From: a virus
IMG/VR virus record: IMGVR_UViG_3300044634_003809
Location: 1 to 61,511 of that record
Strand: one strand, 5' to 3'
DNA length: 61,511 bases
Notes under the pieces: generated by a model
Told to the model about the DNA's origin: nothing
Databases searched by the model: none
What the model saw: the letters and a program-made list of their open reading frames with translations, nothing else
Shown: positions 7,928 to 61,511 of the stretch, piece by piece
Position numbering within the stretch: position 1 is the first letter of the stretch
How the letters are laid out: each line of letters opens with the position of its first letter
Made by a program: the position numbers and the translations under genes

Positions 7928-7932
7928 GATAA

Positions 7933-18664: not shown

Positions 18665-18666
18665 TG

Positions 18667-18673
18667 GTAAATA
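18667..18673 (+). promoter_or_regulatory. Putative late promoter GTAAATA upstream of the spike gene
   Basis: GTAAATA just after the preceding stop, 24 bases from the ATG at 18697. The rest of the leader is AT-rich and ends TTTATAAATGGC, the same string that precedes the gene at 3472. Confidence 0.35.
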
Positions 18674-18696
18674 GTATTATAATTTATAATTTATAA

Positions 18697-29494: not shown

Positions 29495-29566
29495 GCCCTT
29501 GTAACTCAGTGGTAGAGTGCGATACTTGTAATATCGAAGACGTTGGTTCGAATCCAATCGGGGGCT
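29495..29566 (+). tRNA. tRNA-Thr (UGU anticodon)
   Basis: Complete 72-base cloverleaf. Acceptor GCCCTTG/CGGGGGC (two G-T pairs), D arm ACTC-AGTGGTA-GAGT, anticodon arm CGATA-CTTGTAA-TATCG with anticodon TGT at 29527-29529, five-base variable loop, T arm GTTGG-TTCGAAT-CCAAT, discriminator T. No encoded CCA. It reads ACA and possibly other threonine ACN codons. tRNA-Thr(UGU) is one of the tRNAs commonly carried by cyanophages. A perfect 16-base palindrome follows two bases later. Confidence 0.95.
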
Positions 29567-47177: not shown

Positions 47178-48389
47178 ATGTCTAGACCCAATCAGTTTTT
47201 ATCCCCAGAAGGTGATATAGAAGATTATTTTGTGGATGAATATTGGTTGATTGACCAGTGGGTTGGAGACCAATTGTGGGTTTGGGGGGCCGCATCAAGA
47301 TTATCTGGAAATGGAGCACTTGGAAACGGAGCAACAACAGGTAACATAAGCACTCCAATCACCACATTTGCCGGAGGAACCAACTGGAAACAAGTGGATG
47401 GTGGACTTGTTCAAACAGCAGCAATCAAAACTGATGGAACCTTATGGACTTGGGGTTATAATGTGCAAGGACAACTTGGAAACGCACAAGTAACCAATAG
47501 ATCTACTCCAGTCACCACATTTGCTGGAGGAACCAACTGGAAACAAGTTAGTTGTGGAGATACTCATACAGCAGCAATCAAAACTGATGGAACCTTATGG
47601 ACTTGGGGTCTTACGAATGATGGACGACTTGGAAACGGAATAACAACATTAGGTACCAGATCCACTCCAATCACCACATTTGTCGGGGGAAATAATTGGA
47701 AACAAGTTAGTTGTGGATCTGGTAATACATCAGCAATCAAGACTGATGGAACCTTATGGACTTGGGGTATTGGAACTAATGGACGACTTGGAAACGGAAT
47801 AACAACAGGCAATATATCCACTCCAATCACCACATTTGCCGGAGGAACAAACTGGAAACAAGTGAGTACTGGAAGATTTCATACAGCAGCAATCAAGACT
47901 GATGGAACCTTATGGATTTGGGGTCAGGGAACTGTTGGGCAACTGGGAAATGCACAAATAATCAATATATCCACACCAATCACCACATTTTCTGGAGGAA
48001 CTAACTGGAAACAAGTTAATTGTGGAGAACTTCATACAGCAGCAATCAAGACTGATGGAACTTTATGGATTTGGGGTTCTGGAGATAATGGACAACTGGG
48101 AAATGCACAAATAATCAATATATCCACACCAATCACCACATTTTCTGGAGGAACCAACTGGAAACAAGTGAGTGGTGGAAGTGGTCATGCAGCAGCAATC
48201 AAGACTAATGGAACCTTATGGACTTGGGGTCTTGGAAATTATGGACGACTTGGAAACGCACAAACAACCAACGTATCCACTCCAGTCACCACATTTGCTG
48301 GAGGAACCAACTGGAAACAAGTGAGTGGTGGAAATGTTCATACAGCAGCAGTTGAAGCAGGTATCAACGCCGAGTACCCACTCTCATAA
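47178..48389 (+). CDS. RCC1-like seven-bladed propeller protein 1
   Basis: 403-aa protein made almost entirely of RCC1 repeats. Seen: a 33-residue N-terminal adaptor ('NQFLSPEGDIEDYFVDEYW'), then seven 'LWxWG' cores spaced about 50 residues apart, each followed by 'G.LGN......(S)TP.TTF.GG.NWKQV..G....AAIKTDGT'. Seven is the number in a closed RCC1 propeller, so the fold should be complete. In the cell RCC1 binds chromatin, but in a phage next to fibre genes such a propeller is more likely a surface-binding adhesin (inference). The blades are nearly identical in DNA. Two homologues lie at 49076 and 53931 with different N-terminal adaptors. No strong ribosome-binding site. Confidence 0.85.
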   Translation: MSRPNQFLSPEGDIEDYFVDEYWLIDQWVGDQLWVWGAASRLSGNGALGNGATTGNISTPITTFAGGTNWKQVDGGLVQTAAIKTDGTLWTWGYNVQGQLGNAQVTNRSTPVTTFAGGTNWKQVSCGDTHTAAIKTDGTLWTWGLTNDGRLGNGITTLGTRSTPITTFVGGNNWKQVSCGSGNTSAIKTDGTLWTWGIGTNGRLGNGITTGNISTPITTFAGGTNWKQVSTGRFHTAAIKTDGTLWIWGQGTVGQLGNAQIINISTPITTFSGGTNWKQVNCGELHTAAIKTDGTLWIWGSGDNGQLGNAQIINISTPITTFSGGTNWKQVSGGSGHAAAIKTNGTLWTWGLGNYGRLGNAQTTNVSTPVTTFAGGTNWKQVSGGNVHTAAVEAGINAEYPLS

Positions 48390-48392
48390 ATA
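48385..48392 (+). promoter_or_regulatory. Putative late promoter CATAAATA upstream of the DUF4376 gene
   Basis: CATAAATA overlaps the TAA stop of RCC1 gene 1 and lies 13 bases before the ATG at 48406. Confidence 0.4.
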
Positions 48393-48405
48393 CTCAAAAA
48401 CGATA

Positions 48406-49074
48406 ATGGAAATAGCACTCATTCATAACAACTCATTAGAACTTGGTCCTTTCGGGATGAATGTTCATTATATCAATCAAGAGTTAGAAGAACTTGAAGT
48501 AGAAGAGAGAGTATCTCCTCAAAGTTTTTCTGAACTTCCTATTCATTTTAGTGATGGACTTACTCATCTACTTCCAACAGAAAGAGTCATTCCAGAGAAC
48601 GACCCAAAGTATCAAAATGTAGGAAACTTTACTTGGGAAATTGTTGAAGAAAATGGTGTTTCCACTAAAGTAGTATTCACTTATCCAATTATTGATAAGA
48701 CTTTAGAAGAAGTCAAGGTAATTCGCAAGCAAGAAGTTGCTCCAGCAAGAAGACAGAAAGAAAATACTATTACTACTCTTACGGTCAATAATACTGAAGT
48801 AGAAGTATCAACCTCAAGAGAAGAGAGATTGATGCTTGCAAGTAAACTTTCAGCATCTCCTGGGCCTCATAACTTTAAGTTCCAGAATACTTGGTTAGAG
48901 ATTACTACAGAAGAACTTCAATATATTGTAAGTGAAGTTGATAAAGTAGTTCAAGAAGCATTTGACTGGGAATTAGCAAAACTTCAAGAGATTGATGCTT
49001 GTGAGACGATTGATGAGGTTTATGATGTTGTGATTGTAGAGCAACCAGAACCCCCTCAATTACCAGTAGAGTGA
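48406..49074 (+). CDS. DUF4376-domain protein (tail fibre-associated)
   Basis: 222-aa protein. I take the ATG at 48406; the open frame extends 81 bases upstream into the RCC1 gene, but the region before 48406 has no conserved content. Seen: N-terminal 'MEIALIHNNSLELGPFGMNV' and 'PERVIPENDPKYQNVGNFTW'-like stretch (residues ~60-85), then a C-terminal DUF4376-type domain (about 110-210): 'RRQKENTITTLTVNNTEVEV', 'SREERLMLASKLS', 'WLEITTEELQYIVSEVDKVV', 'QEAFDWELAKLQEIDACETI'. DUF4376 is common in phage tail fibre and fibre-assembly proteins. It is flanked by two RCC1 genes and stops one base before the second, so it could assist attachment or folding of those propellers (inference). Confidence 0.7.
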   Translation: MEIALIHNNSLELGPFGMNVHYINQELEELEVEERVSPQSFSELPIHFSDGLTHLLPTERVIPENDPKYQNVGNFTWEIVEENGVSTKVVFTYPIIDKTLEEVKVIRKQEVAPARRQKENTITTLTVNNTEVEVSTSREERLMLASKLSASPGPHNFKFQNTWLEITTEELQYIVSEVDKVVQEAFDWELAKLQEIDACETIDEVYDVVIVEQPEPPQLPVE

Positions 49075-49075
49075 A

Positions 49076-50317
49076 ATGAGTAGAGTAGAAACAACCACTA
49101 ACTTTAGAGATAGTTTTGGTACTGATTTGGGTAGAAAGTTGGTCACCAAAGACTATCTAATCAGTGTCTATCCTGAAATTGGAGATAAGATTGGTATTCC
49201 TCCAGAGTTGTGGACTTGGGGTGATGGACAATTTGGAAGACTTGGAAACGCTGTAATAACAGGTACCAGAAGTGCTCCAAGTACAACATTTGCTGGAGGA
49301 ACTAACTGGAAACAAGTGAGTGCTTTAAAACGTCATACAGCAGCAATCAAAACTGATGGAACCTTATGGACTTGGGGTTATGCAGAGTCTGGAAGACTTG
49401 GAAACGCTGTAATAACAGGTAACAGAAGTACTCCAGTCACCACATTTTCCGGCGGAACCAATTGGAGACAAGTGAGTTGTGGAGGTTATCATACAGCAGC
49501 AATCAAAACTGATGGAACCTTATGGGGTTGGGGTGCTAATAGTAATGGACAACTTGGAACTAATGATTCAGGTAACAGAAGTACTCCAGTCACCACATTT
49601 TCCGGCGGAACCAATTGGAGACAAGTGAGTTGTGGAGATAATCATACAGCAGCAATCAAAACTGACGGAACTTTGTGGATTTGGGGCAGGGGAAATAATG
49701 CAAGACTTGGAAACGCTCTAACAACAGGTAATAGAAGCACTCCAATCACCACATTTGCTGGAGGAACTAACTGGAAACAAGTGAGTTGTGGAGGTTATCA
49801 GACAGCAGCAATCAAAACTGATGGAACCTTATGGACTTGGGGTTATGGGAGTAAATCGCGACTTGGAAACGGAGCAATATCAGGTAACAGAAGTACTCCC
49901 GTCACTACATTCGCTGGAGGAACTAATTGGAAACAAGTGAGTTGTAATCTTAATAATACAGCAGCAATCAAAACTGATGGAACATTATGGACTTGGGGTG
50001 ATGGAAGTTATGGACGACTTGGAAACACACAAACAACCGATAGATCCACTCCAATCACAACATTTGCTGGAGGAACTAACTGGAAACAAGTTGCTTGTGG
50101 ATATCGACATACAGCAGCAATCAAAACTGATGGAACTTTATGGACTTGGGGGTATGAAAATAATGGAGCACTTGGAAATAATAGAATAGACCCTTTTTTT
50201 CCAGCATCCATAGTTAGTCCAATTACCACATTTGCCGGAGGAACCGACTGGAAACAAGTAACTTGTGCATATCAACATACAGCAGCAATCAAATCAGTAG
50301 ACTTTTCACCATTCTAA
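49076..50317 (+). CDS. RCC1-like seven-bladed propeller protein 2
   Basis: 413-aa RCC1 protein. The N-terminal adaptor (about 1-40) contains 'RVETTTNFRDSFGTDLGRKL' and 'VTKDYLISVYPEI', an element I have seen at the start of other cyanophage structural proteins, which supports virion attachment. Seven 'LWxWG' cores follow (LWTWG, LWTWG, LWGWG, LWIWG, LWTWG, LWTWG, LWTWG), each with 'TAAIKTDGTLW' at the blade junction; the last blade ends in a short 'SVDFSPF'. Probable adhesin. The ATG comes one base after the previous stop, so it is coupled to the DUF4376 gene. Confidence 0.85.
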   Translation: MSRVETTTNFRDSFGTDLGRKLVTKDYLISVYPEIGDKIGIPPELWTWGDGQFGRLGNAVITGTRSAPSTTFAGGTNWKQVSALKRHTAAIKTDGTLWTWGYAESGRLGNAVITGNRSTPVTTFSGGTNWRQVSCGGYHTAAIKTDGTLWGWGANSNGQLGTNDSGNRSTPVTTFSGGTNWRQVSCGDNHTAAIKTDGTLWIWGRGNNARLGNALTTGNRSTPITTFAGGTNWKQVSCGGYQTAAIKTDGTLWTWGYGSKSRLGNGAISGNRSTPVTTFAGGTNWKQVSCNLNNTAAIKTDGTLWTWGDGSYGRLGNTQTTDRSTPITTFAGGTNWKQVACGYRHTAAIKTDGTLWTWGYENNGALGNNRIDPFFPASIVSPITTFAGGTDWKQVTCAYQHTAAIKSVDFSPF

Positions 50318-50323
50318 TAAATA
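50316..50323 (+). promoter_or_regulatory. Putative late promoter AATAAATA upstream of the modification cassette
   Basis: AATAAATA overlaps the end of RCC1 gene 2 and lies 24 bases before the ATG at 50348. It would be the entry promoter of the glycosyltransferase operon, placing it in the late class with the fibres. Confidence 0.45.
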
Positions 50324-50347: not shown

Positions 50348-51688
50348 ATGAACCCTCTTGAGTTGGTCACAAAAACTCTACACTCCTTCAACGAAAAAGA
50401 ACTTACCTCACAAATTCTACAAGCATTTGGTAAGAGAGCAGAAACTTTTGAGCAACATAATGATGTTGCCAAGATTTTCTTTGAAATTAAAGATTTCTCA
50501 AATGCTATTACTTATGGTGAGAAAGCACTTAAGTTAGCAAAGTCAAAAGAAGAACTTTATATTACTACAAAAAACCTCATAAACGCATACAACCAAAATA
50601 ATTATCCAGAGAAAGCAATAACTCAAATCTCAAAAATTAAATCACAAAATCCCCAAGATACTGAACTTCTTCTTGAGGAAACTTTTTCATACTCTGCTCT
50701 GAATCAAAAAGAAAAATCAGAAAAACTTTTATTTGACCTAATTAAAAAACCACTACCAGAAGAGATTGAAAGAAAGGCATATCACAATCTTTCTGGACAT
50801 TATTTCCGTAAAGATGATATTCGTACAGGACTTCAACACTTTCTCAAAGCAGGAGAAGTGGAGGCATATAAGAATAAAAAGTATCCAAACTATGAGAAGT
50901 GGGATGGAACAGTAACTCCAGGTAGAACGATTATTATTGATAGTCAGTGTGGTGCTGGTGATGAAGTGATTCACGTTCGGTTTATGAAGCACCTAAAAGA
51001 ACTTGGAATGAATCCAATCTGGACAACAACCAGAAAAGATATTCAAGAACTCTTTAACTATAATGGTTTCCGTACTGAACTTGTATGGGATAATCCAGAG
51101 TTTCCAAAAGATTCTTGTTGGGTTTATGCTCTTGCTCTTCCTTATTATCTCAATCTCAAAGTAGAAGATTTGGGGCAAACTCCTTATCTCAAACCACTAC
51201 CACAGAAAGAAGAGCAATATTCTTATCTACAAGAAGATAATAACTATAAGATTGGTACATTCTGGAACTCTGGTTCTGGATTTGAACAAGCACATTTCCG
51301 TTCAATTGATGCTGATGATTTATTCAAAGTTCTATCAAAAACTAATTCATCATTATATTCACTTCAACTACCAGACCAACAACCACCAGAGTATTATGAG
51401 GTAAATACTTTTGATATTCCAAATCGTGATTTTACGGATACATTTTCACTTGTATCTCAAATGGACTTGGTGATTACTTCTTGTACTTCTATTGCTCACA
51501 TAGCAGCATCAATGGGTAAAGAAGTTTGTGTGTTTGTACCAATTATGGAATATTATGTCTGGACTAGTAGTACAGGAAAGTCTTGGTGGTATGGGGATAA
51601 TGTTCATTTGTTTAAACAAAAGAAACCGAGAAATTGGGACGAACCTTTGAAACAATTGAAGGAGTTTCTAAATGATAGAGGAATATAA
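50348..51688 (+). CDS. TPR-glycosyltransferase (GT9/GT-B-like)
   Basis: 446-aa protein. Seen: N-terminal TPR-like helical repeats (about 30-190) with 'DVAKIFFEIKDFSNAITYGE' and 'NLINAYNQNNYPEKAITQ', then a GT-B-type glycosyltransferase part: 'SQCGAGDEVIHVRFMKHLKE' (about 199-218, matching 'GD.v...R....lk..g' of heptosyltransferase-like GTs), and 'MDLVITSCTSIAHIAASMGK', 'EVCVFVP', then a 'WW' and Phe-Lys run, which is the sugar-nucleotide-binding C-terminal motif seen in TPR-glycosyltransferases. Such proteins transfer sugars to proteins or polysaccharides in bacteria. Donor and acceptor are unknown. Overlaps the next gene by 17 bases; late-type box upstream. Confidence 0.75.
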   Translation: MNPLELVTKTLHSFNEKELTSQILQAFGKRAETFEQHNDVAKIFFEIKDFSNAITYGEKALKLAKSKEELYITTKNLINAYNQNNYPEKAITQISKIKSQNPQDTELLLEETFSYSALNQKEKSEKLLFDLIKKPLPEEIERKAYHNLSGHYFRKDDIRTGLQHFLKAGEVEAYKNKKYPNYEKWDGTVTPGRTIIIDSQCGAGDEVIHVRFMKHLKELGMNPIWTTTRKDIQELFNYNGFRTELVWDNPEFPKDSCWVYALALPYYLNLKVEDLGQTPYLKPLPQKEEQYSYLQEDNNYKIGTFWNSGSGFEQAHFRSIDADDLFKVLSKTNSSLYSLQLPDQQPPEYYEVNTFDIPNRDFTDTFSLVSQMDLVITSCTSIAHIAASMGKEVCVFVPIMEYYVWTSSTGKSWWYGDNVHLFKQKKPRNWDEPLKQLKEFLNDRGI

Positions 51689-52130
51689 CCTTTCTTTTCT
51701 CAATCTAAATATCATTAAGAACAAACTTCTTGAAATAGAAACCAGTCCTCACGGACTTGTGACTAAAGGTGTTTCTACTTATAATCACGGAATGCCCACT
51801 CTAATGTATCCAGAACTCACTGGATTAAAGAATGTTATTAAACAATATGTTAGACTATATTGTAATAAGTATGAGATTCCACCTTTAAAGTTTATCAATA
51901 GTTGGTTTAATATTTCACAACCAGGAAATAAACTTAAAGCACATAAGCACGAAGAAAGTATTGTAAGTGGTGCATTTTATATTTCTGGAAAAACCCCACT
52001 TATTTTTCCAGATACAAAAGTAAATCCATATCCAGGACTTTTAGTTGTCTTCTCAAGTGATTTGGTTCATTATACAGAAGAAGAAACAGAAGAAAGAATT
52101 ATTATTAGTTTTAATACAGATTACCTATGA
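51672..52130 (+). CDS. 2OG-Fe(II) oxygenase family protein
   Basis: 152-aa protein of the phage-type 2-oxoglutarate/Fe(II) dioxygenase family (2OG-FeII_Oxy_5-like). Seen: 'FINSWFNISQPGNKLKAHKH' then 'EESIVSGAFYI', 'PGLLVVFSSDLVH', and 'ERIIISFNTDYL'. Likely metal ligands are H91/H93 and E94 or nearby acid with H133; R142 is the probable 2OG-binding Arg. Family members hydroxylate or otherwise oxidise proteins or nucleic acids; many cyanophages carry one of unknown substrate. GGAG ribosome-binding site; overlaps neighbours on both sides (17 bases upstream, 4-base ATGA downstream), so it is made with the glycosyltransferases. Substrate may be the fibre or a glycan (inference). Confidence 0.8.
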   Translation: MIEEYNLSFLNLNIIKNKLLEIETSPHGLVTKGVSTYNHGMPTLMYPELTGLKNVIKQYVRLYCNKYEIPPLKFINSWFNISQPGNKLKAHKHEESIVSGAFYISGKTPLIFPDTKVNPYPGLLVVFSSDLVHYTEEETEERIIISFNTDYL

Positions 52131-52915
52131 AATTTTTATTTTTGGTTGGTTCAGCACTTAAACACTTCCAAGAAGAAAAGTTTAGTGCTTATGATGAAGA
52201 ACAAAGATTTGAGCAAACACTAAAAACAATTGAATGTATAAGAGAAAAAGTTCCTAACTCTTATGTCGTTTTATTTGAGTGTTCTTCTAAACCAATTGAT
52301 GAGAAGCAAAAAGAGGTACTCAAAGAAAAAGCAGATTTGTTTTTAGAGTTTTATAATGAACCAGTACTCAAACAGATTTATGAAAATCTAGAATCAAGAC
52401 CAGAATTGATTACTTATGGTAAATCATTATTAGAAACCAGAGGATTATTGAATACTCTTTATGTAATCAAGAAGCATAATTTGTTTAGTGATAGCCAAAG
52501 AGTATTCAAACTGACTGGAAGATACTTACTGAATGAGTATTTTGATATTAAAGATTATGAATCAAAATTTCTTGAGGAAAAATATGTAATCAAAAAGTAT
52601 GATTATCTTCCACAAGAGGCAGAGAATTTTGATGAGAAAGAACTTGAGAATGTTTATGCCTATCTTTATGGTGCTCAAGGTATGATGGTAACTGGTCTAT
52701 GGTCTTTTGACCGTATTCTGTTTAATGAGATTGTTGAGTCACTTGAAAAAGCATTTGTTTATATGGAAAAGATGCTTCAATTTACAGCAGGTACTGATGT
52801 TGAGCATTCTCTTTATCGGTTCTTGAACAAAAAAAATGTGATTAGTATTCCAAATCTTGGTCTTACAACGATTAAGGGAATGAGTGGTGAGAATGGAGCA
52901 AGTTATAATATATGA
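52127..52915 (+). CDS. Unknown protein in glycosyltransferase cassette (GT-A-like candidate)
   Basis: 262-aa soluble protein, not firmly recognised. Seen: N-terminal 'FLFLVGSALKHFQEEKFSAY' and 'VVLFECSSKPIDEKQKEVLK', an alpha/beta start; 'RVFKLTGRYLLNEYFDIKDY' (about 125-144) resembles the '.k.sGRY.l' motif of some capsule-type glycosyltransferases; 'AQGMMVTGLWSFDRIL' and a His-containing 'GTDVEHSLYRFL' near the end. No clear DxD. Linked by ATGA overlaps on both sides (52127-52130 and 52912-52915), so it belongs to the coupled operon. A sugar-modifying role is inferred from context. Confidence 0.6.
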   Translation: MKFLFLVGSALKHFQEEKFSAYDEEQRFEQTLKTIECIREKVPNSYVVLFECSSKPIDEKQKEVLKEKADLFLEFYNEPVLKQIYENLESRPELITYGKSLLETRGLLNTLYVIKKHNLFSDSQRVFKLTGRYLLNEYFDIKDYESKFLEEKYVIKKYDYLPQEAENFDEKELENVYAYLYGAQGMMVTGLWSFDRILFNEIVESLEKAFVYMEKMLQFTAGTDVEHSLYRFLNKKNVISIPNLGLTTIKGMSGENGASYNI

Positions 52916-53565
52916 AACTAGCAATCTTTTATCATATTGGGCAGATTGGTATTGGTGCTTTTGTTTATATTAATCAGGTTCATAGACTTTATACTTCAGG
53001 ATTAATCAAAGAAGCATCTTATATTCACTTTGGAGTGAATGGAAATCAAGAACTCTTTAATATTCCTAATAATACAAAGGTTGTTTATAATCAAAATCAT
53101 AAGGAAGAAACAGAAACTTTAATGTCTTTACGTGATTTTTGTAAACAAAATCCAGATTATAAAGTTCTTTATTTTCATACTAAAGGAGTATCAAAAGAAA
53201 GTATGAATGCTGAAAGTTGGAGATTGATGATGGAATATTTTGTGATTGATAGATGGAAAGAATGTGTAGAATACTTGAATGATTATGATGTTGTTGGAAG
53301 TAATCTCAAAGTTTTGGGACCAACCACTTGGAGTGATGGTAGACAATCGTGGGAGAAAGCAGGAACTCAACATTTTGTAGGAAACTTTTGGTGGGCAAAT
53401 GCTTCTTATGTAAATACTTTAAGTGATGAGTTTTTGGAAAGTGACTTTAGATTAGACCGTGAGTTCTGGATTGGTACTGGAGATGGTAAAATGAAATCTT
53501 TATATCAACCAGAAGATTACGAACCTTATACATACTTTTACCGGGAGAAGGATTATGTTTCGTGA
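52912..53565 (+). CDS. Glycosyltransferase-like protein (GT-A type)
   Basis: 217-aa protein. Seen: 'KLAIFYHIGQIGIGAFVYIN' start, 'DYKVLYFHTKGVSKESMNAE' (about 82-101), 'YLNDYDVVGSNLKVLGPTTW', and a strongly conserved-looking 'HFVGNFWWANASYVNTLSD' followed by 'LDREFWIGTGDGKMKSLYQP'. The 'YFHTKG ... H..GNFWWA.. Y ... L... R ... E.WI' pattern occurs in a family of glycan-synthesis proteins in bacteria; I judge it a glycosyltransferase, with acceptor and donor unknown. Overlaps the previous gene (ATGA) and the next by 11 bases. Confidence 0.6.
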   Translation: MKLAIFYHIGQIGIGAFVYINQVHRLYTSGLIKEASYIHFGVNGNQELFNIPNNTKVVYNQNHKEETETLMSLRDFCKQNPDYKVLYFHTKGVSKESMNAESWRLMMEYFVIDRWKECVEYLNDYDVVGSNLKVLGPTTWSDGRQSWEKAGTQHFVGNFWWANASYVNTLSDEFLESDFRLDREFWIGTGDGKMKSLYQPEDYEPYTYFYREKDYVS

Positions 53566-53908
53566 ATGTGGAGAATGCACTGCATGTTGCAGTTGGTTAG
53601 TTGCTAATATCTATGGATGGGAAATTGGTGGCGGAAAGTCTTGTAAATTTTTAGAGTGTAATGGTTGTGGTGTCCATAATGCAAGAGCAGAGGTTTGCAG
53701 AAACTATCAGTGTGCTTGGACGCAACATTTACTTCCAGAAGAAATGAGACCTGATAAATCTAATATAATAGTCTCTGTAGAGAATAATCCAAATGGGCAA
53801 CATTTAAAAGTATTGCCAATAAATAATAAAGAAATAAAACCTGAAGTTAAACAATACCTTCAAAAGTGGAGTGAGAGTATGAACACTCCTGTGATTTTTA
53901 TAGAATAA
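53555..53908 (+). CDS. Cys-rich YkgJ-like metal/cluster-binding protein
   Basis: 117-aa protein with nine cysteines: C5-x2-C8-x2-C11-C12 at the N terminus ('ECGECTACC'), then C30, C35-x2-C38 and C48-x4-C53 ('VCRNYQCAW'). This matches the YkgJ / UPF0153-type zinc- or iron-chelating domain (C..C..CC ... C ... C..F/Y.C). The C-terminal half is not Cys-rich and lacks other motifs. Family members are thought to bind Zn or an Fe-S cluster; substrate unknown. Ribosome-binding site AAGGA. It overlaps the upstream glycosyltransferase gene by 11 bases. An associated Fe-dependent 2OG oxygenase lies three genes earlier, so a link to metal handling is possible (inference). Confidence 0.7.
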   Translation: MFRECGECTACCSWLVANIYGWEIGGGKSCKFLECNGCGVHNARAEVCRNYQCAWTQHLLPEEMRPDKSNIIVSVENNPNGQHLKVLPINNKEIKPEVKQYLQKWSESMNTPVIFIE

Positions 53909-53930
53909 AAGTCGTTTCCAAGAACTCAAA

Positions 53931-55118
53931 ATGCCAGCCTTTTATAACTTTACAGAAAACGGACTTGTTTATAGTTTTGATGACATTTTTGTTCCTGCTG
54001 ATTTTTTTCGTGAAGGGAATTTGTGGACTTGGGGTTCTGCAATTAGTATTCAACTTGGTGATGGTTCGACAACAGGTAATAGAAGTACTCCAATAACTAC
54101 ATTTGCTGGGGGAGCAAATTGGAAATCTGTCCAAGATTCTTTTAACACATCAACTGCGGCAGCAATTAAAACTGATGGAACCTTATGGATTTGGGGAAGT
54201 CAATTTAACGGACAATTAGGAATTAATAACACTGGCAATAGAAGCACTCCAGTTACAACATTCGCCGGAGGAACCAATTGGAAACAAATTACTTTTGGTT
54301 CTGCTCATGCCGTAGCAATTAAAACCGATGGAACCTTATGGACTTGGGGATTTGGTGGAAGACTTGGAAACGGAACAACAACTGGCAACATAAGCACGCC
54401 AGTCACCACATTTGCTGGAGGAACCAACTGGAGACAAGTAAGTTGTGGTGATGCCCACACAGTAGCAATCAAAACTGATGGAACTTTATGGGCTTGGGGT
54501 TCTGGTGGACAAGGAAAACTTGGGAATGGTTTAGTTTCAGCCGTAGCAGTTATATCAACTCCAATCACAACATTTGCTGGAGGAACCAACTGGAGACAAG
54601 TTGCATGTTCAAATAATATGACAGCAGCAATCAAAACTGATGGAACTTTATGGGTTTGGGGTGATGCTGCAAATTCATTGCTTGGAAACGGATTAACAAC
54701 AGGTAGCATAAGTACTCCAATCACAACATTTGCTGGAGGAACCAACTGGAAACAAGTTTCCAGCGGAGGCAATCACACAGCAGCAATCAAAACTGATGGG
54801 ACCTTATGGACTTGGGGTTCTGGTGCTAATGCCATTGGAAATGGAAGCTTTCCTACTAGTACTCCAGTCACCACATTTGCTGGAGGAAATAACTGGAAAC
54901 AAGTAAGTTGCGCGAATGCAATTGCTACAGCAGCAATCAAGGCTGATGGAACCTTATGGACATGGGGTGCTGGTAATAATGGAATACTTGGAGAAAGATC
55001 TACATATGGTACTAAAAGCACTCCAGTCACCACATTTGCTGGAGGAACCAATTGGAGACGGGTCGGTTCTTCTGGCAATGGTTTTGCTGCACTCACATAC
55101 GATGACCCTGTGATATAA
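53931..55118 (+). CDS. RCC1-like seven-bladed propeller protein 3
   Basis: 395-aa RCC1 protein lying inside the enzyme cassette. N-terminal adaptor (about 1-31) 'YNFTENGLVYSFDDIFVPAD' differs from the other two. Seven 'LWxWG' cores (LWTWG, LWIWG, LWTWG, LWAWG, LWVWG, LWTWG, LWTWG) form a complete propeller. Blade three lacks a few residues ('GFGGRLGNGTTTGN') and blade one has a longer insert ('VQDSFNTSTAAAIK'). The blade consensus is the same as in proteins 1 and 2, but the copies are more diverged from each other. Probable adhesin. The location breaks a run of enzyme genes with 22 and 24 base gaps. No ribosome-binding site of note. Confidence 0.85.
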   Translation: MPAFYNFTENGLVYSFDDIFVPADFFREGNLWTWGSAISIQLGDGSTTGNRSTPITTFAGGANWKSVQDSFNTSTAAAIKTDGTLWIWGSQFNGQLGINNTGNRSTPVTTFAGGTNWKQITFGSAHAVAIKTDGTLWTWGFGGRLGNGTTTGNISTPVTTFAGGTNWRQVSCGDAHTVAIKTDGTLWAWGSGGQGKLGNGLVSAVAVISTPITTFAGGTNWRQVACSNNMTAAIKTDGTLWVWGDAANSLLGNGLTTGSISTPITTFAGGTNWKQVSSGGNHTAAIKTDGTLWTWGSGANAIGNGSFPTSTPVTTFAGGNNWKQVSCANAIATAAIKADGTLWTWGAGNNGILGERSTYGTKSTPVTTFAGGTNWRRVGSSGNGFAALTYDDPVI

Positions 55119-55142
55119 TACATAATAAGAAAGCAATAAACT

Positions 55143-55925
55143 ATGAAGACATTATATTTTCTTGGAGGACTTCCAAGAAGTGGTTCTACATTACTTGGGT
55201 CACTTCTCAATCAACATCCTGACATTTATGTATCACCAACATCTCCATTGGGTGATGTAGTCACTGATATTGAAAAGTCATTTAATACTTTAGATATTCA
55301 ATTTACCTTTGACCGTAAAGCAATATCTTATAATGTTTATAAGGCAGTTCTTGCTAACTTCTATAATCATATTCCAAAATCAACAATTCTAGATAAGCAT
55401 CGGTTTTGGGGAAAGAATCTTGATACAGTACAAATGTTTCTTTCGAACAAACCAAAGATTGTAGCAACTTATCGTTCTATTCCAGAAGTTCTTACATCTT
55501 ATATTTCTCTTATAGAACGGTCAAAGCACGAAGATAACTTTATTGATAATCATTTAAGAAAAGATAATCTTCCAATCACAAACAATAATCGTGCCGAATA
55601 TATTTGGAGATATTATGTTTCTCCATCTTATGAGAGTATGGTTTATGGACTTACAAAGTATCCAGATTGGGTTCATCTGGTAGAATACAATAGTCTCGTA
55701 GAAAATCCAGAAACAGAACTGAATAAAATCTATGAGTTTTTAGAGGTTCCTTCTCATACAAATGCCTTTGATAATATTGATAATGCTTGCGGAGAACAAA
55801 AGGATGATGCTTGGGGATTAAGAGGTCTTCACGATATTCGTCCAAATCTATCTAAAATCTCACAAAATCCTATTGATGTAATAGGAGAAGAAAATGTAAA
55901 ACTTTATTCCAAGTTTGATTTATGA
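55143..55925 (+). CDS. Sulfotransferase-family protein
   Basis: 260-aa PAPS-dependent sulfotransferase candidate. Seen: 5'-phosphosulfate loop 'GLPRSGSTLL' (about 9-18) with the classic 'RSGST', and a 3'-phosphate region 'ATYRSIPEVLTSYISL' (R111 and S119 as expected binding residues). 'DKHRFWGKNLDTV' and a C-terminal 'VEYNSLVENPETELNKIYEF' plus 'LEVP' (usual 'P...l..i..FL') also match the family. The enzyme would move sulfate from PAPS to a hydroxyl of a sugar or tyrosine. No signal peptide, so it acts in the host cytoplasm. Start of a new coupled run: its stop overlaps the next start (ATGA). Sulfotransferases are known but uncommon in phages. Confidence 0.8.
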   Translation: MKTLYFLGGLPRSGSTLLGSLLNQHPDIYVSPTSPLGDVVTDIEKSFNTLDIQFTFDRKAISYNVYKAVLANFYNHIPKSTILDKHRFWGKNLDTVQMFLSNKPKIVATYRSIPEVLTSYISLIERSKHEDNFIDNHLRKDNLPITNNNRAEYIWRYYVSPSYESMVYGLTKYPDWVHLVEYNSLVENPETELNKIYEFLEVPSHTNAFDNIDNACGEQKDDAWGLRGLHDIRPNLSKISQNPIDVIGEENVKLYSKFDL

Positions 55926-56728
55926 AAACTCATTTGTTAGTGGTTCTTCAGTCTCATTCAAAAGGGAATAGAGATGCTGATGAAAATCATAAAAGATATT
56001 GTAATGCTCCAAAGATTGAAGTATCATCAAGATGTATTTTTTCTGTGATTGATGCTTTGAATTATGCTCAAGAGCAATATCCAGATTATGAAATAGAACT
56101 ACAAATCTTTGATGACCATTCAGACCAAGAGTTTCTGGATATTCTTCAGTCACTAATTGATACAGCAAAGTTTAAGGTCAATCTAACACATCTTGAAACT
56201 TATGGAATAATGCCTTCAATCCTTCGTTGTTATGAGCACGGAAGAGACTGTGGAAAGGATTGGGTCTATTTTATTCAAGATGATTTTCTTCATCAACAAA
56301 ACTCCGTTGAATTGATGATAGATGCTATTAATCAGTTCAGTTGCAATCTAGGAAAACCAGCAAGTATCTTTCCATTCAACAAACCAGCAGAATATCATAA
56401 CCCAGAAAATACTGCGGTTCTTTGTAATATTGTTGTAGGTAAAGACAGATACTGGAGAACTAATATTCATCCAGCAGTCACTTTGATGACTCATAGTAGT
56501 ATCATTAAACAAAACTGGGATTTATTTTATAAGATGGGAACAAGTAAAATAAGTGAAACGATGGAGATGGAGAGTATTTGTAAGATTTATTATGAAAGAG
56601 GATATTACTGCTTTACTCCCATTCCATCATTAGCACTTCATATGCAAACAGAGTGGGATAAGGACTTTTTTATTGACTGGAAATCTTGGTGGAATGAATA
56701 CGATTTGGAGAAACTAAATGAAAATTAA
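55922..56728 (+). CDS. Glycosyltransferase, GT-A type (family 2-like)
   Basis: 268-aa GT-A glycosyltransferase candidate. Seen: 'LLVVLQSHSKGNRDADENH' start, 'FSVIDALNYAQEQYPDYEIE', 'LQIFDDHSDQEFLDILQSLI' (like the 'DDxSxD' of GT2), then 'GKDWVYFIQDDFLH' (about 110-123), where QDD acts as a DxD-like nucleotide-sugar and metal site. 'FPFNKPAEYHNPEN' and a His-rich later part follow. It starts in the sulfotransferase stop (ATGA) and overlaps the next gene by 11 bases. A similar enzyme follows, so two related sugars or steps may be added. Donor and acceptor unknown. Confidence 0.7.
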   Translation: MKTHLLVVLQSHSKGNRDADENHKRYCNAPKIEVSSRCIFSVIDALNYAQEQYPDYEIELQIFDDHSDQEFLDILQSLIDTAKFKVNLTHLETYGIMPSILRCYEHGRDCGKDWVYFIQDDFLHQQNSVELMIDAINQFSCNLGKPASIFPFNKPAEYHNPENTAVLCNIVVGKDRYWRTNIHPAVTLMTHSSIIKQNWDLFYKMGTSKISETMEMESICKIYYERGYYCFTPIPSLALHMQTEWDKDFFIDWKSWWNEYDLEKLNEN

Positions 56729-57413
56729 TGTATATTTAAGACACTGCTATTACTCAAAAATTCAAGAAGCACCAGGAAAACAAAGACCTTCTTGGTGGGA
56801 TAAAGAAAAGGTATTTCAAAACTTTAAGAATACTCTTAATCCAGAAACAACAAACTATACAATCATCTATGATGAACATTATGGAAAGATAGAAGATACT
56901 TTCTTAGCACAAGAGAATAATGTTTATACTATTAATTGTGGTGGAGAAGCAAAGAGTTTTATTGAGACATTAAAGTACATTCAATCTCAAAACCATTCTC
57001 CAGATGATATCATTTATTTTCTAGAAGATGATTATGTCCATCAACCAGGATGGGATAAAGTTCTAATTGAGGGATTTACTCTACCAGTTTCTTATGTGAC
57101 CTTGTACGACCATAGAGATAAGTATGGTGAGTATTATGCGGAGTTTCGCACAAAAGTTTTGTTTACAGATTCTAGTCACTGGATGGCAACACCGTCAACC
57201 ACAAATACTTTTGCCGTTAAGTATTCAACTCTTGTAGAGGACTTTTATACTCATACTAAATATTCTACAGGAGTGGAACCATCAGCAGACCACCAAAAGT
57301 TTTTAGAATTATCACAAAGAGGAAGAGTTCTTATATCTTCTATTCCTGGTTATTCTACACACTGTCAAGAAGATTTATTATCACCTTGTATTGATTGGAA
57401 AAATTACTTATGA
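56718..57413 (+). CDS. Glycosyltransferase-like protein, GT-A type
   Basis: 231-aa protein related in layout to its neighbour. Seen: 'YLRHCYYSKIQEAPGKQRPS' start; 'TNYTIIYDEHYGKIEDTFLA'; 'DDIIYFLEDDYVHQPGWDKV' (about 95-114) with EDD as the probable DxD site; then 'YVTLYDHRDKYGEYYAEFRT' and 'HWMATPSTTNTFAVKYSTL', followed by 'STGVEPSADHQKFLELSQRG'. The 'YFLEDDY.H...W' string and following 'H.D' pattern are typical of GT-A enzymes in glycan clusters. The stop TGA overlaps the ATG of the next gene (57410), so it is coupled to the three-domain enzyme. Confidence 0.7.
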   Translation: MKINVYLRHCYYSKIQEAPGKQRPSWWDKEKVFQNFKNTLNPETTNYTIIYDEHYGKIEDTFLAQENNVYTINCGGEAKSFIETLKYIQSQNHSPDDIIYFLEDDYVHQPGWDKVLIEGFTLPVSYVTLYDHRDKYGEYYAEFRTKVLFTDSSHWMATPSTTNTFAVKYSTLVEDFYTHTKYSTGVEPSADHQKFLELSQRGRVLISSIPGYSTHCQEDLLSPCIDWKNYL

Positions 57414-59527
57414 ATTGGAAAGATGTTGAAGGTTATTTTTCTTACACTAACCTTTATGATTTAGCAATCAAATACTGTCCAGATAACTCAACTTTTGTAG
57501 AAGTTGGTTCTTGGATGGGGAGGTCTACTTGTTATATGGGAGAACAGATTAAAAAATCTCCCAAAAATATCAAGTTTTATGCTGTAGATACTTGGGAAGG
57601 TAGTGAGGAAATATCTCATAAAGAAACAATAGAAAAACTGAAGAATGAAAACCTATCTCTATTTGATATCTTCAATCATCATATTCAAATGTGTGGTGTT
57701 CAGGAACAAGTAATACCACTTAAAACCACTAGTATAGAAGCAGCAAAACAGTTTGAAGATAATAGTCTTGATTTTGTTCACATTGATGCTTCACACGATT
57801 ACGAAAATGTTTTAGCAGATATTATTGCTTGGTATCCAAAAGTAAAACCAGGAGGTTTTATTACTGGTGATGACTATGTAATAAGTTGGGGTGGAGTTAT
57901 TCAAGCAGTTAAAGAATATTTTACAGGAAAATCTGTGGTTCTTTTAGACCGTGGAGATTTTACATTAAACAAAGTTTGGTTACATCAAAAACAAGGAGAA
58001 AAAATGGAAGTTGCACTTTATGCTATCTCTAAAAACGAAGAAAAGAATGTTGAGAAATTCGTTGAAATCTCAAAGAAATTTTCTCATACTGTTGTAGTTG
58101 ATACTGGAAGCACAGATAATACAGTTCAACTACTCAAAGAAGCAGGTGTTGAAGTCTATGAGCATCCACAAAGTAGAGAAGAGTTTGATTTTTCAGTTGC
58201 AAGAAATCAGGCACTGTCTTATGTAAAGACCGATTGGGCATTTTCTCTTGATTTGAATGAAGACCTAGATGAGTTTCATCCAGAAGGTCTTGGTGTGATT
58301 GCGGGAGAGTTCACATCATTCAAACACGAACGATACAATAAAATAGGAGATCAAGAGACATCACTATCAAATGAAACTCACACTCGTTTTCACAGAACCA
58401 AAAACTATATTTGGGTAGGTGCTGTACACGAAAATCTTGTATTTTTACCATCTGAAGAACATCTAAACGAGTCTACTGTTGATACTACTATTAAAATTAC
58501 TAAAAATATTCATAATACGGTAGATAAAGAACTATTCTATCTTTCAATATGCGAAAGAGAATTTGAAAAAGATCCCACTAATACCTACTATCTTTGGTTT
58601 ATCTTCAAGCATTATTTTGAAGTTAAAAATTTCGGCAAAGCAATTGAACTTGGTCAAGAATATCTAAATCTTTCTAAAGCATATTTTGATGTTACTAGAA
58701 TTGATGTGTTTATTATGACTAGTATTGCTCTTATTAATATTAAAGATATTCAAAGAGCATCTAATTATGCTTTCCATGCATTGAGTGAAGCAATGAATAT
58801 TGGTGGTGATGTTATGGGTAAAGCATTCACTCATCTACTTAACATTGGTAAACTTACTCAAAATCCTAATATTATTATCTTTGCATCTGGATTTAGTTCA
58901 GATACAGTAAGACTTTCCGAAAGAACAGAAGCAATTGACAAACTATTCTTGACCAATCTTGACGATATTCCAACCACTGCTTGGATGGGGCATCGTCCTT
59001 TTGCTGAATGGATTGTAAAACAACTAAATCCGGAAGTAATTGTAGATTTGGGTGTTGATTGGGGATACTCTACATTCTCATTTGCAATGCCAAGAATTGG
59101 TAAAGTGTATGGTATTGATAATTTTGCTGGTGATGATTTTGTTGGAAAATCAAATACTTATTCTTTCATATCTATGAAGAGGGATAAATTACACCTTCAA
59201 GATAATGTAGAATTTATCAAAGGTGACTTTAATGAAGTTTCCAAGACCTGGGATAAGAAAATTGATATTCTTCACATTGATGGTAGTCACCACTATGAAG
59301 ATGTGAAGAAAGATTTTGAAACTTGGAGTCAGTTTGTAAATGATGATGGTGTAATTCTAATGCACGATACTTGTGTTGAGAATTTTGAAGGTATGGAGTA
59401 TGGAGTTAAGAAATTCTTTGATGAAATTGAACTTCCAAAATGCACATTTACACATTCTTTTGGTCTTGGTGTAGTTTCTAAAAATGAAAAAATAATGGAA
59501 CAAATTAAGACAACTTTCAATCTATGA
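57410..59527 (+). CDS. Three-domain fusion: methyltransferase - GT2 glycosyltransferase/TPR - methyltransferase
   Basis: 705-aa enzyme. I use the ATG at 57410, which overlaps the previous stop (ATGA); an upstream TTG is not needed. Seen: (i) 1-195, class I methyltransferase of the Methyltransf_24 type: 'FVEVGSWMGRSTCYMGEQI' (SAM loop), 'DFVHIDASHDYENVLADI', 'KPGGFITGDD'; (ii) about 199-470, GT2 glycosyltransferase plus TPR helices: 'VVVDTGSTDNTVQLLKEAG', 'FSVARNQAL', 'AFSLDLNEDL' (in the DxD position DLNED), then 'IELGQEYLNLSKAYFD'; (iii) about 540-705, second methyltransferase: 'VIVDLGVDWGYSTFSFAMP' and 'IDILHIDGSHHYEDVKKDFE'. A strong internal ribosome-binding site before Met199 (58004) may also yield parts (ii)+(iii) alone. 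Substrate unknown. Confidence 0.8.
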   Translation: MNWKDVEGYFSYTNLYDLAIKYCPDNSTFVEVGSWMGRSTCYMGEQIKKSPKNIKFYAVDTWEGSEEISHKETIEKLKNENLSLFDIFNHHIQMCGVQEQVIPLKTTSIEAAKQFEDNSLDFVHIDASHDYENVLADIIAWYPKVKPGGFITGDDYVISWGGVIQAVKEYFTGKSVVLLDRGDFTLNKVWLHQKQGEKMEVALYAISKNEEKNVEKFVEISKKFSHTVVVDTGSTDNTVQLLKEAGVEVYEHPQSREEFDFSVARNQALSYVKTDWAFSLDLNEDLDEFHPEGLGVIAGEFTSFKHERYNKIGDQETSLSNETHTRFHRTKNYIWVGAVHENLVFLPSEEHLNESTVDTTIKITKNIHNTVDKELFYLSICEREFEKDPTNTYYLWFIFKHYFEVKNFGKAIELGQEYLNLSKAYFDVTRIDVFIMTSIALINIKDIQRASNYAFHALSEAMNIGGDVMGKAFTHLLNIGKLTQNPNIIIFASGFSSDTVRLSERTEAIDKLFLTNLDDIPTTAWMGHRPFAEWIVKQLNPEVIVDLGVDWGYSTFSFAMPRIGKVYGIDNFAGDDFVGKSNTYSFISMKRDKLHLQDNVEFIKGDFNEVSKTWDKKIDILHIDGSHHYEDVKKDFETWSQFVNDDGVILMHDTCVENFEGMEYGVKKFFDEIELPKCTFTHSFGLGVVSKNEKIMEQIKTTFNL
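57993..58006 (+). promoter_or_regulatory. Internal Shine-Dalgarno and ATG inside the fusion gene
   Basis: AAGGAG at 57993-57998, five A-rich bases, and an in-frame ATG at 58004 (codon 199), exactly at the boundary between the first methyltransferase and the GT2 domain. This is the best Shine-Dalgarno of the cassette, and likely marks either a former separate gene start or a second translation start. Confidence 0.6.
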
Positions 59528-59880
59528 GAATTGTAGTTCCTATATCAGTCGGAGAACTTTTAGATAAGATTACTATACTTGAAATTAAATCTCTTTTGGG
59601 TTATAATGAGTACGTAGAAAAAGAACTTGAAGAACTTAATCAGATTAAAGATACTATAAAATCTTACACTGAAGAATATATGAATCAGTTGCGAAAAGTG
59701 AATCAAAATCTTTGGAAGATTGAAGACAGATTAAGAGTTCTTGAAAAGGAACAAAGATTTGATAATGAATTTATTGAACTTGCTCGAAGTGTTTATAAAC
59801 TAAACGACCAAAGAGCAGAAATTAAAAGAAAAATCAACAAAGAAACTAATTCAGAATATAAAGAAATTAAAATTTATTAA
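59524..59880 (+). CDS. DUF6165-like small protein
   Basis: 118-aa helical protein whose N terminus 'MRIVVPISVGELLDKITILE' and 'IKSLLGYNEYVEKELEEL' match the DUF6165 signature ('.P.S.GEL.DKITIL.IK......eL..L'). The rest is a charged amphipathic helix with 'LRKVNQNLWKIEDRLRVLEK' and 'LARSVYKLNDQRAEIKRKIN'. DUF6165 genes commonly lie beside glycosyltransferases in bacterial surface-polysaccharide clusters, but the function is unknown. Its ATG overlaps the fusion-gene stop (ATGA). Typical length for the family. The operon appears to end here. Confidence 0.75.
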   Translation: MRIVVPISVGELLDKITILEIKSLLGYNEYVEKELEELNQIKDTIKSYTEEYMNQLRKVNQNLWKIEDRLRVLEKEQRFDNEFIELARSVYKLNDQRAEIKRKINKETNSEYKEIKIY

Positions 59881-59881
59881 A

Positions 59882-59888
59882 ATAAATA
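59882..59888 (+). promoter_or_regulatory. Putative late promoter ATAAATA upstream of the 109-aa gene
   Basis: ATAAATA at the start of the 30-base gap after the DUF6165-like gene, 22 bases before the ATG at 59911. The gap is very A-rich, so a chance match is possible. Confidence 0.35.
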
Positions 59889-59910
59889 TTAGAAAATAAA
59901 AAAAATAACA

Positions 59911-60240
59911 ATGAAATATGATTGGAAAATAAAAGAAATAGTGAAAAAAGATTTCTCAAATAGAGAGAATGTCATCTATAAAGTTTTTTGGGAAAAAATA
60001 GGAACCGATGAAAATGGAAACATTGGGAAAGCACAAGGATCAACACTTTTCAATACGGATAAAGTGAGTTATGATGAGTTTGTAGAATATGATAATTTAA
60101 CAGAAGAACTTGTTTTAGGGTGGATTTTGGATTCAATAACTGAATCATATGATAAAAGATTGAATAGAAAAATTTTAAATAAAATAGAACAAATTAAAAA
60201 TCCTTCCACTAAAGTTTCTGAATTTCCTTGGAGTAATTAA
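59911..60240 (+). CDS. Small conserved cyanophage protein, unknown function
   Basis: 109-aa soluble charged protein, alpha/beta-looking. Seen: 'WKIKEIVKKDFSNRENVIYK', 'VFWEKIGTDENGNIGKAQGS', 'VEYDNLTEELVLGWILDSI', 'KIEQIKNP'. I have seen proteins with this 'W.i..i........v...V.W......' layout in cyanophages, with no known function. It is separated from the DUF6165-like gene by 30 bases and has only an A-rich leader (AAAAAAATAACA), so it may be outside the cassette's coupled operon. 11 bases separate it from the next gene. Confidence 0.6.
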   Translation: MKYDWKIKEIVKKDFSNRENVIYKVFWEKIGTDENGNIGKAQGSTLFNTDKVSYDEFVEYDNLTEELVLGWILDSITESYDKRLNRKILNKIEQIKNPSTKVSEFPWSN

Positions 60241-60251
60241 ATTTAACTGAT

Positions 60252-61232
60252 ATGATTAATTTTGTAAAACTTGCCATAGAAAATGGGGGATCTATATACC
60301 CTCTCATAATTCCACATACAGAATTAAAAGGTCCCGCATTAACAAATCCCTCAATCTATAATGATAATGGTAAATTACTATTAAATTTGAGAAATATTAA
60401 TTATACTTTATATCATTCGGAAAAGAAAAAATTTGAGCATCATTGGGGACCTCTGGTTTATATTCATCCCGAAAATGATATTCGCCTTCGCACTTGGAAT
60501 TATATGTGTGAAGTTGATGGTAATATGAGAATTAAAAAGTATAGCAAAATAGACACCTCAAAGTTTCCTGATAAAGAACTTTGGGAATTTGTTGGTCTCG
60601 AAGATGCTAGAATTGTTCGTTGGGATGAAAAACTTTATATCTGTGGAGTTCGTAGAGATCTTGATGAAGTTGGAACTGGTCGTATGGAACTTTCTGAAAT
60701 TGAGATTACAGAAAGTGGTGTTAAAGAAATAAATCAATACAGAATTCCTACTCCAGGAAACAACGATTCTTATTGTGAAAAGAATTGGATGCCTATTCTT
60801 GATATGTCATTTCATTTTGTAAAATGGACTAATGGTACTGAAGTAGTAAAATATGATATTTCTACAGGAAAAACAGAGCAAGTATTGGTTACCGAATGGA
60901 GAGATCTTGGATGTATAGATCTTCGTGGAGGATCACAAATTATTAAATTAGATGATCAACATAGATTTGCACTAAATCACGAAACTTATTTGTTTAAAAG
61001 CGAACAAGGAAGAAAGGATGGAAAATATCGCCATAGATTTATTGTATGGGATGATAATTGGAATATTATAAAAGTTTCTAAACAATTCTCATTCTTGAAT
61101 GCAGATGTTGAATTTGCAGTTGGTATGTGTGAATATAAAAATGATTATTTAATTACTTTTGGTTTTCAAGATAATGCTGCTTATCTATTGAAAGTATCTC
61201 AAGATTTTGTTAAAAAATTTATTTTCGATTAG
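60252..61232 (+). CDS. Five-bladed propeller glycoside-phosphorylase/hydrolase-like protein (GH130-like)
   Basis: 326-aa protein resembling GH130/GH43-type beta-propellers, which phosphorolyse or hydrolyse mannosides. Seen: 'GPALTNPSIYNDNGKLLLNL' (about 27-46), 'LWEFVGLEDARIVRWDEKLY' (about 110-129), where 'GLEDARI' parallels GH130 'GVEDPRI' with its key acidic residue, 'EKNWMPILDMSFHFVKW', 'LRGGSQIIKLDDQHRFALNHE', and a C-terminal 'DVEFAVGMCEYKNDYLITFG'. Proteins of this kind are found beside glycosyltransferases in bacterial polysaccharide loci. Whether it cuts host glycans, trims the phage's own sugars, or only binds is unknown. No signal peptide. It ends three bases before the next start. 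Confidence 0.65.
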   Translation: MINFVKLAIENGGSIYPLIIPHTELKGPALTNPSIYNDNGKLLLNLRNINYTLYHSEKKKFEHHWGPLVYIHPENDIRLRTWNYMCEVDGNMRIKKYSKIDTSKFPDKELWEFVGLEDARIVRWDEKLYICGVRRDLDEVGTGRMELSEIEITESGVKEINQYRIPTPGNNDSYCEKNWMPILDMSFHFVKWTNGTEVVKYDISTGKTEQVLVTEWRDLGCIDLRGGSQIIKLDDQHRFALNHETYLFKSEQGRKDGKYRHRFIVWDDNWNIIKVSKQFSFLNADVEFAVGMCEYKNDYLITFGFQDNAAYLLKVSQDFVKKFIFD

Positions 61233-61234
61233 TT

Positions 61235-61511
61235 GTGAATTTAATTATAGGAAATACTGCAGGAACTTTTAGTACGATACTAAACTATCTTTCTTGGATG
61301 GTTATTAAAGATATTTCTGAAAATGAAATATCTTTAGATTTCCATTGGACTAATAAAACAGATTTTAGTGGAAATACCTTTTACGGATATAAAAATGTAA
61401 AAAAGCAAAATTTTTATGAACCATTAATTCATAGACCAAATATAATGAGTCATTTATTTGAGTATGCTCCAAATTCTTTTATGGAAGATTATGAAGAATA
61501 TGTTGAATCTT
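61235..61511 (+). CDS. Unknown protein, partial (runs off the window)
   Basis: Open frame to the end of the window. A GTG at 61235 starts it two bases after the previous stop: MNLIIGNTAGTFSTILNYLS..., then 'FHWTNKTDFSGNTFYGYKNV' and 'MSHLFEYAPNSFMEDYEEYV'. Not recognised. Composition and close spacing show that it belongs to the same gene cluster. A glycan-related role is plausible only from position. A weak ribosome-binding site and use of GTG instead of ATG leave the start uncertain. Confidence 0.55.
   Translation, partial: MNLIIGNTAGTFSTILNYLSWMVIKDISENEISLDFHWTNKTDFSGNTFYGYKNVKKQNFYEPLIHRPNIMSHLFEYAPNSFMEDYEEYVES

Follow-up and report, generated by a model that had tools for sequence, protein, structure and literature searches.

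The window analysed here is one entire IMG/VR record of 61,511 bases (IMGVR_UViG_3300044634_003809) from a freshwater cyanobacterial virus, and its final part carries a cassette of glycosyltransferase (GT), sulfotransferase and methyltransferase genes (50348–59880) that is interwoven with genes for RCC1 propeller proteins. All genes of the cassette lie on the + strand and most of them overlap or abut. Upstream, likewise on the + strand, come a giant collagen-like (Gly-X-Gln) tail-fibre protein of 3383 amino acids with a C-terminal Peptidase_S74 chaperone (36496–46647), RCC1 propeller protein a, a putative virion adhesin (47178–48389; PF25390 E 2.9e-74, PF00415 E 3.4e-61), a DUF4376-like protein that has a homologue at the same place in relatives (48325–49074; PF14301 E 1.8e-4, below cut-off) and RCC1 propeller protein b (49076–50317; PF25390 E 3.5e-84).

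The cassette itself begins with TPR-GT9 (50348–51688), the product of which is predicted to join a TPR superhelix to a heptosyltransferase-type GT-B domain. It continues with a 2-oxoglutarate (2OG)-Fe(II) oxygenase (51672–52130; PF13759 E 3.5e-12, 47.0 bits against a cut-off of 27; phrog_81), a predicted GT-A fold glycosyltransferase with no Pfam match (52127–52915), the putative GT-like protein FWWA, which has a GNFWWA motif (52912–53565), and CxxC, a cysteine-cluster protein with a YkgJ-like pattern and eight invariant cysteines (53555–53908; phrog_9155). RCC1 propeller protein c lies within the cassette (53931–55118; PF25390 E 3.4e-56) and is followed by the sulfotransferase SULT (55143–55925; PF13469 E 1.3e-14, 55.4 bits against a cut-off of 27; PF00685, 47 bits against 22), the variable GT2 glycosyltransferase GT2a (55922–56728; PF00535 E 3.3e-6, above the Pfam cut-off), the conserved GT2-like protein GT2b (56718–57413; a weak PF00535 match, E 0.066), a 710-residue Methyltransf_24–GT2–Methyltransf_24 fusion (57395–59527; PF13578 E 2.6e-43 over two stretches, PF00535 E 3.8e-8) and a DUF6165 protein (59524–59880; PF19662 E 1.3e-11). 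Beyond it on the same strand are a DUF7936 protein (59911–60240; PF25590 E 7.2e-14) with a separate ATAAATA motif at 59882 and a protein at 60252–61232, and the contig end cuts the last gene of the window.

The original prediction, made from the sequence alone, had described an overlapping cassette with a 2OG oxygenase, a sulfotransferase, two methyltransferase domains and a DUF6165 protein, and profile searches place all of these where it had put them. Its GT-like proteins are recovered by profile for GT2a (from 55922) and for the GT2 domain within 57395–59527 and by fold for TPR-GT9 and the GT-A protein, while 56718–57413 is matched only weakly. The GH130-like label given to the gene at 60252–61232 finds no support in Pfam, NCBIfam or PDB, and three relatives of that protein also fall in no Pfam family. 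The Gly-X-Gln fibre and RCC1 genes do precede the cassette as two fibre/propeller blocks, but the third RCC1 gene inside it had been missed, and CxxC had also been overlooked.

Enzyme folds and the late promoter motif

The AlphaFold model of TPR-GT9 (pLDDT 85.2) resembles the GT9 structure 3tov (Z 17.5 over 243 residues), WaaF (1psw; Z 16.4) and TibC (Z 16.0), and its best Foldseek matches are SPINDLY and OGT. The modelled domain is GT9-like by fold, and we claim no GT9 membership at the sequence level, where the protein scores 12.6 bits against PF01075 (Pfam cut-off 22); the GT41 profile PF13844 has no match in the window protein. Like OGT and SPINDLY (GT41), the predicted enzyme has a TPR superhelix ahead of a GT-B domain, but its C-terminal domain is GT9-like rather than GT41, and full-length superposition is poor (TM ~0.3, root-mean-square deviation >13). 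For the gene at 52127–52915, the model (pLDDT 83) matches GlcAT-S (Z 12.9) and the PBCV-1 capsid GT 2p72 (Z 11.5). In the 2OG oxygenase, H91, H93, H133 and R142 are invariant across 11 relatives, and by analogy the three histidines would bind iron and the arginine 2OG. PDB sequence searches with family profiles of the 2OG, TPR-GT9, GT-A and FWWA proteins returned weak or chance matches only, and most of the ten cassette proteins have no assigned function in PHROGs. In the FWWA family (52912–53565 aligned with its relatives), the N-terminal half is conserved and the C-terminal half occurs in distinct types, a pattern resembling swaps by recombination.

A late-type promoter motif had been predicted at the start of the cassette, and AATAAATA indeed lies at 50316–50323 (+), leaving about 25 nt between its end and the TPR-GT9 start codon (ATG at 50348). 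The reported late promoter of S-PM2 is NATAAATA (PMC2984593), and a motif of this type placed some 30 nt upstream of the leading gene is the arrangement of a T4-like late operon. An (N)ATAAATA or CTAAATA-like element is found 20–34 nt 5′ of the TPR-GT9 start in 28 of 34 distinct relatives, the strict form WATAAATA in 11 of 35. This strict form occurs once before the GT-A gene, in 3 of 12 cases before the GH130-labelled gene, and never before the 2OG, FWWA, CxxC, SULT, GT2a, GT2b, fusion or DUF6165 genes. As bare ATAAATA is rarer in the window than expected by chance (18 observed, 30 expected), only the position and conservation of the motif carry weight, and a sigma-70 promoter scan was uninformative (60 found, 59 expected). 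The simplest reading of this motif pattern is a single late operon.

Conservation and the RCC1 partnership

Loci with both TPR-GT9 and FWWA numbered 172 and fell into 40 clusters, which share ancestry and are not independent trials. FWWA was present in all 40, the GT-A gene and CxxC in 39 each, the fusion gene in 37, GT2b in 36, SULT in 34, DUF6165 in 33, the 2OG gene in 30, the GH130-labelled gene in 14 and GT2a in 11. RCC1 motifs were found upstream in 30 of the 30 clusters with enough sequence, and RCC1 was located between FWWA and GT2b, i.e. inside the cassette, in 34 of 36 testable clusters. Since gene order is kept in ~40 locus clusters and in Synechococcus phage S-SRM01, the cassette is not a product of chance. 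In the first 10 kb of two loci (L095, L058), RCC1 is expanded, with 43–46 motifs upstream of TPR-GT9 against the usual ~12.

S-SRM01 (Kyanoviridae, Serangoonvirus; circular, 240,842 bp) is the closest cultured phage, and its gp337–gp349 follow the same order: RCC1, RCC1, TPR-GT9, 2OG, two GT-like genes, CxxC, RCC1, sulfotransferase, GT2-like, GT/methyltransferase gene and DUF6165. It differs in lacking a Gly-X-Gln tract throughout its genome and in having a nucleotide-sugar dehydratase-like gene after the cassette. The S-SRM01 genome paper leaves RCC1 unmentioned and lists two GT2-like ORFs identified by HHpred. A second sugar cluster in this genome (gp296–gp312; L372:31593–45029) encodes GMD, GDP-fucose synthase, a SIS-domain protein, an NDP-sugar synthase, a NodZ-like fucosyltransferase and several GTs.

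More distant viruses retain parts of this arrangement. In the marine single-cell virus AG-345-E08 (35 kb), for which several gene names were assigned by position and by eye, fibre, RCC1, DUF4376-position and RCC1 genes and further genes lead to TPR-GT9, after which come a 2OG-slot gene, a GT-like gene, RCC1, SULT and, further on, CxxC and FWWA. The 47-kb record L180 has a diverged cassette in which RCC1 domains are fused to fibre-like N-terminal parts, and its scanned stretch holds three PF13759 enzymes and one DUF6445 protein. Beside these fusions (L180:11379–13896) are split HldE-like (kinase, adenylyltransferase) and HldD-like genes, which score below NCBIfam cut-offs and possibly represent a phage ADP-heptose pathway. 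In phage BUCT-ZZ01 the order is tail fibre, one gene, an RCC1 protein (700 aa, 13 RCC1 repeats, annotated BNR) and a TPR-GT9 protein whose C-terminal stretch resembles a methyltransferase (a weak PF08241 match that stays below cut-off). A Gly-X-Gln phage that has no TPR-GT9 (L301) encodes a 1167-aa protein combining a subtilisin-like region, recognised by eye, with an RCC1 propeller recognised by profile (15457–18960, − strand). Among the papers searched, none relevant was found that connects RCC1 to phage tail fibres or to glycosyltransferases together with sulfotransferases.

Outside cassette-bearing phages, a scan of genome contigs with the TPR-GT9 alignment yielded 69 loci, eight of them with RCC1, which in seven cases lies on the same strand at a gap of 0–131 nt. 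In Patescibacteria, Bdellovibrionota and divergent phages alike, TPR-GT9 relatives have RCC1 genes as direct neighbours. The Bdellovibrionota cases number four (L305, L307, L319 and L321), and in the first three the neighbours are ordinary genes (PhoU, DUF4143 ATPase, SDR, FAD oxidoreductase). The RCC1 proteins of L305 and L319 start with twin-arginine-like (Tat-like) signals, as judged by eye, which would agree with modification of a folded protein before export. Sulfotransferase homologues occur in 4 of the 69 loci, all four RCC1-bearing: one adjoins RCC1 (L305) and three are fused to TPR-GT9 (L303, L304, L309). In the patescibacterial locus L309, a single protein encoded after RCC1 combines sulfotransferase, TPR-GT9, methyltransferase and a true GT41 domain. 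Such enzyme fusions usually imply steps on one shared acceptor. In seven other TPR-GT9 genomes tested, RCC1 was wholly absent. Although RCC1 was absent from all 14 control genomes, which suggested rarity among bacteria, RCC1-like domains occur in 200 of 291 genomes of the Bdellovibrionales phylum; as RCC1 is common there, we place reliance on adjacency and on same-genome paralogues.

One sequence feature of the propellers follows the same division. With one common RCC1 profile used to count motifs per blade, [ST][ST]P averages 0.71 per blade in 12 GT9-linked loci and 0.18 in 30 unlinked ones (Mann-Whitney p 7e-6). In five genomes that have both kinds, the motif is present in 32 of 61 blades of linked RCC1 proteins versus 8 of 60 blades of unlinked paralogues (p 6e-6), and composition alone predicts it in 7% and 4% of blades, respectively.

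Candidate acceptors and rival explanations

On balance, we lean towards reading the cassette as a late operon whose enzymes modify adhesins of the phage's own virion, with the RCC1 propellers encoded upstream of and inside the operon as the main candidate acceptor. The propellers are favoured over the collagen-like fibre because the core enzymes adjoin RCC1 genes in unrelated viruses and in predatory bacteria. The original prediction had offered a virion-fibre modification pathway; late, virion-directed glycosylation, sulfation and methylation is its best-supported part, whereas the idea that the collagen-like fibre is first hydroxylated by the 2OG enzyme and then glycosylated is unsupported.

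In our model, the RCC1 proteins would be synthesised late and fold in the cytoplasm, where TPR-GT9, laid out like OGT, would grasp the protein with its TPR superhelix and transfer sugar with its GT-B domain. The first sugar would be placed on Ser/Thr, perhaps at the [ST][ST]P turn that is repeated in most blades, then extended by the GT-A and GT2-type enzymes and capped with sulfate by the sulfotransferase and with methyl by the Methyltransf_24 domains, the 2OG enzyme being an optional extra. The decorated propellers would be built into fibres, and receptor binding may thereby be tuned or the fibre tip protected. The GT9-like fold suggests an ADP-heptose-type donor; L180 and AG-345-E08 carry genes matching or similar to the ADP-heptose type, but S-SRM01 has GDP-fucose-type sugar genes elsewhere in its genome. 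A parallel is TibC, a protein O-heptosyltransferase whose gene adjoins that of a surface protein (an adhesin) and whose GT-B fold is likewise GT9-like; the cassette enzyme differs in its N-terminal TPR and in having a propeller, rather than an autotransporter, as candidate substrate.

Several observations weigh against this model. GT9 also contains lipopolysaccharide (LPS) heptosyltransferases, and the cassette enzyme matches these and TibC equally well, with equal Z. The link between RCC1 and TPR-GT9 is strong in the sequences compared but not obligate, because phage G034 has RCC1 proteins but no TPR-GT9, and no RCC1 was detected alongside TPR-GT9 either in the fragment of phage G053, where TPR-GT9 accompanies Gly-X-Gln, or in the 17 kb examined of podovirus ctDrO704; most Azospirillum-type TPR-GT9 loci likewise have no detected RCC1. 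The genome loci L303 and L306, which have fibre-like neighbours, may be viral. Most of the Bdellovibrionota RCC1 proteins have no known TPR-GT9 link, and the reverse test from RCC1 to TPR-GT9 found GT9 in 0 of 30 Bdellovibrionota RCC1 loci, a weak result as these span only ~3–4 kb. The [ST][ST]P comparison is post hoc, the motif having been picked after RSSP/RSTP had been seen in blades, blades and sister proteins are not independent, and the motif may be the signature of one RCC1 subfamily and not an acceptor site.

We consider it unlikely that the enzymes instead remodel host-surface glycans, altering LPS or surface polysaccharide on infected cells so that, for example, superinfection is blocked or progeny do not re-adsorb. 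Such a role would fit a GT9-like enzyme, the GMD and GDP-fucose synthase of the second S-SRM01 cluster, the dTDP-glucose-dehydratase-like gene after the S-SRM01 cassette and the HldE/HldD-like genes of L180. It has a precedent in the T4-like cyanophage P-SSM2, which also has large sugar-enzyme clusters and for whose 24 LPS genes the same role was proposed; those clusters were read as host-LPS genes, whereas here RCC1 is embedded in the operon, as in 34 of 36 clusters (PMC2984593 for P-SSM2). A late promoter motif would seem late for surface exchange, none of the cassette genes was recognised as a flippase or polymerase gene, and in Bdellovibrionota the RCC1/TPR-GT9 pair stands beside ordinary chromosomal genes.

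Modification of propellers in particular also accounts better for the data than general glycosylation of virion proteins, which we regard as improbable and by which several fibre or capsid proteins would be decorated and RCC1 would be near only through a shared, fibre-rich hyperplastic region. TPR-GT9 does adjoin the major capsid gene in ctDrO704 and does accompany Gly-X-Gln in G053; a phage hyperplastic region, however, explains neither the direct RCC1/TPR-GT9 pairs of Bdellovibrionota nor the same-genome [ST][ST]P contrast.

The giant collagen-like fibre is probably a neighbour and not the defining substrate. Its Gly-X-Gln tract comprises 365 triplets in runs of at least 4, of which 123 are GTQ, 7 contain Pro and none contains Lys, and of the Pro/Lys acceptors in Gly-X-Y of eukaryote-type collagen the window tract therefore has almost no Pro and no Lys at all. 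Among 29 cassette contigs searched whole, Gly-X-Gln runs were present in 23 and absent from 6, these being fragments in which absence is weak evidence. The complete genomes of S-SRM01 and BUCT-ZZ01, which carry the cassette or its core, have no such tract, nor do the records of AG-345-E08 and L180. Conversely, of 28 large Gly-X-Gln viral contigs taken from the matches listed, 27 have no TPR-GT9 and 26 no above-cut-off PF13759 gene. The 2OG slot is filled instead by a GT-like gene in L085, L088–L092 and L100, and is empty in L093 and L094, both of which retain Gly-X-Gln. The original prediction had proposed a neighbour survey for co-occurrence of the 2OG enzyme with Gly-X-Gln fibres; because co-occurrence fails in both directions, the link is not constant either way, and collagen/2OG coupling was rejected as the defining link. 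It had also named, as evidence against itself, the cassette in phages lacking collagen-like or RCC1 proteins: phages without the collagen-like protein do carry it, while RCC1 accompanies it in every cassette phage of this clade that could be checked. Mimivirus applies virus-encoded hydroxylase and glycosyltransferase chemistry, with a collagen lysyl hydroxylase/glycosyltransferase, to a collagen-like virion protein, but the window tract is Lys-free, the 2OG gene can be dispensed with, and RCC1 takes the place of collagen as the constant partner. Thus, despite the Thr offered by the GTQ triplets and the Gly-X-Gln proteins near TPR-GT9, sulfotransferase and GT25 in the RCC1-free fragment of G053, hydroxylation by 2OG and then glycosylation of the Gly-X-Gln fibre is a very improbable account of the cassette.

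Two further observations concern collagen-like proteins. A 44.8-kb record in which no RCC1 was found (L302) encodes two consecutive collagen-like phage proteins of 539 and 1675 aa (1325–7962) upstream of TPR-GT9, sulfotransferase and GT25, and the window has a single tRNA-Thr(TGT) gene (29495–29566) near its Thr-rich fibre, of which 127 triplets in the collagen-like tract contain Thr.

A possible glycosylation system

More tentatively, RCC1 and TPR-GT9, with sulfotransferases and methyltransferases as partners, may constitute an undescribed protein-glycosylation system that tailed phages share with Bdellovibrionota and Patescibacteria. The acceptor would then be the [ST][ST]P turn of each blade, and the propeller, once decorated, would serve virions or cells as a tunable adhesin. 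Viruses are already known to encode the glycosylation of their virion proteins, and the sugar-enzyme genes of cyanophages tend to be classified under LPS or auxiliary metabolic genes; for many of these cyanophage cassettes we know of no established acceptor. Naming RCC1 as the acceptor family and [ST][ST]P as the candidate site allows a direct mass-spectrometry test on cultured phages, and the model becomes testable with BUCT-ZZ01, a phage propagated on Synechococcus elongatus PCC 7942. That predatory and episymbiotic bacteria have the same pair would imply a common route to decorated propeller adhesins.

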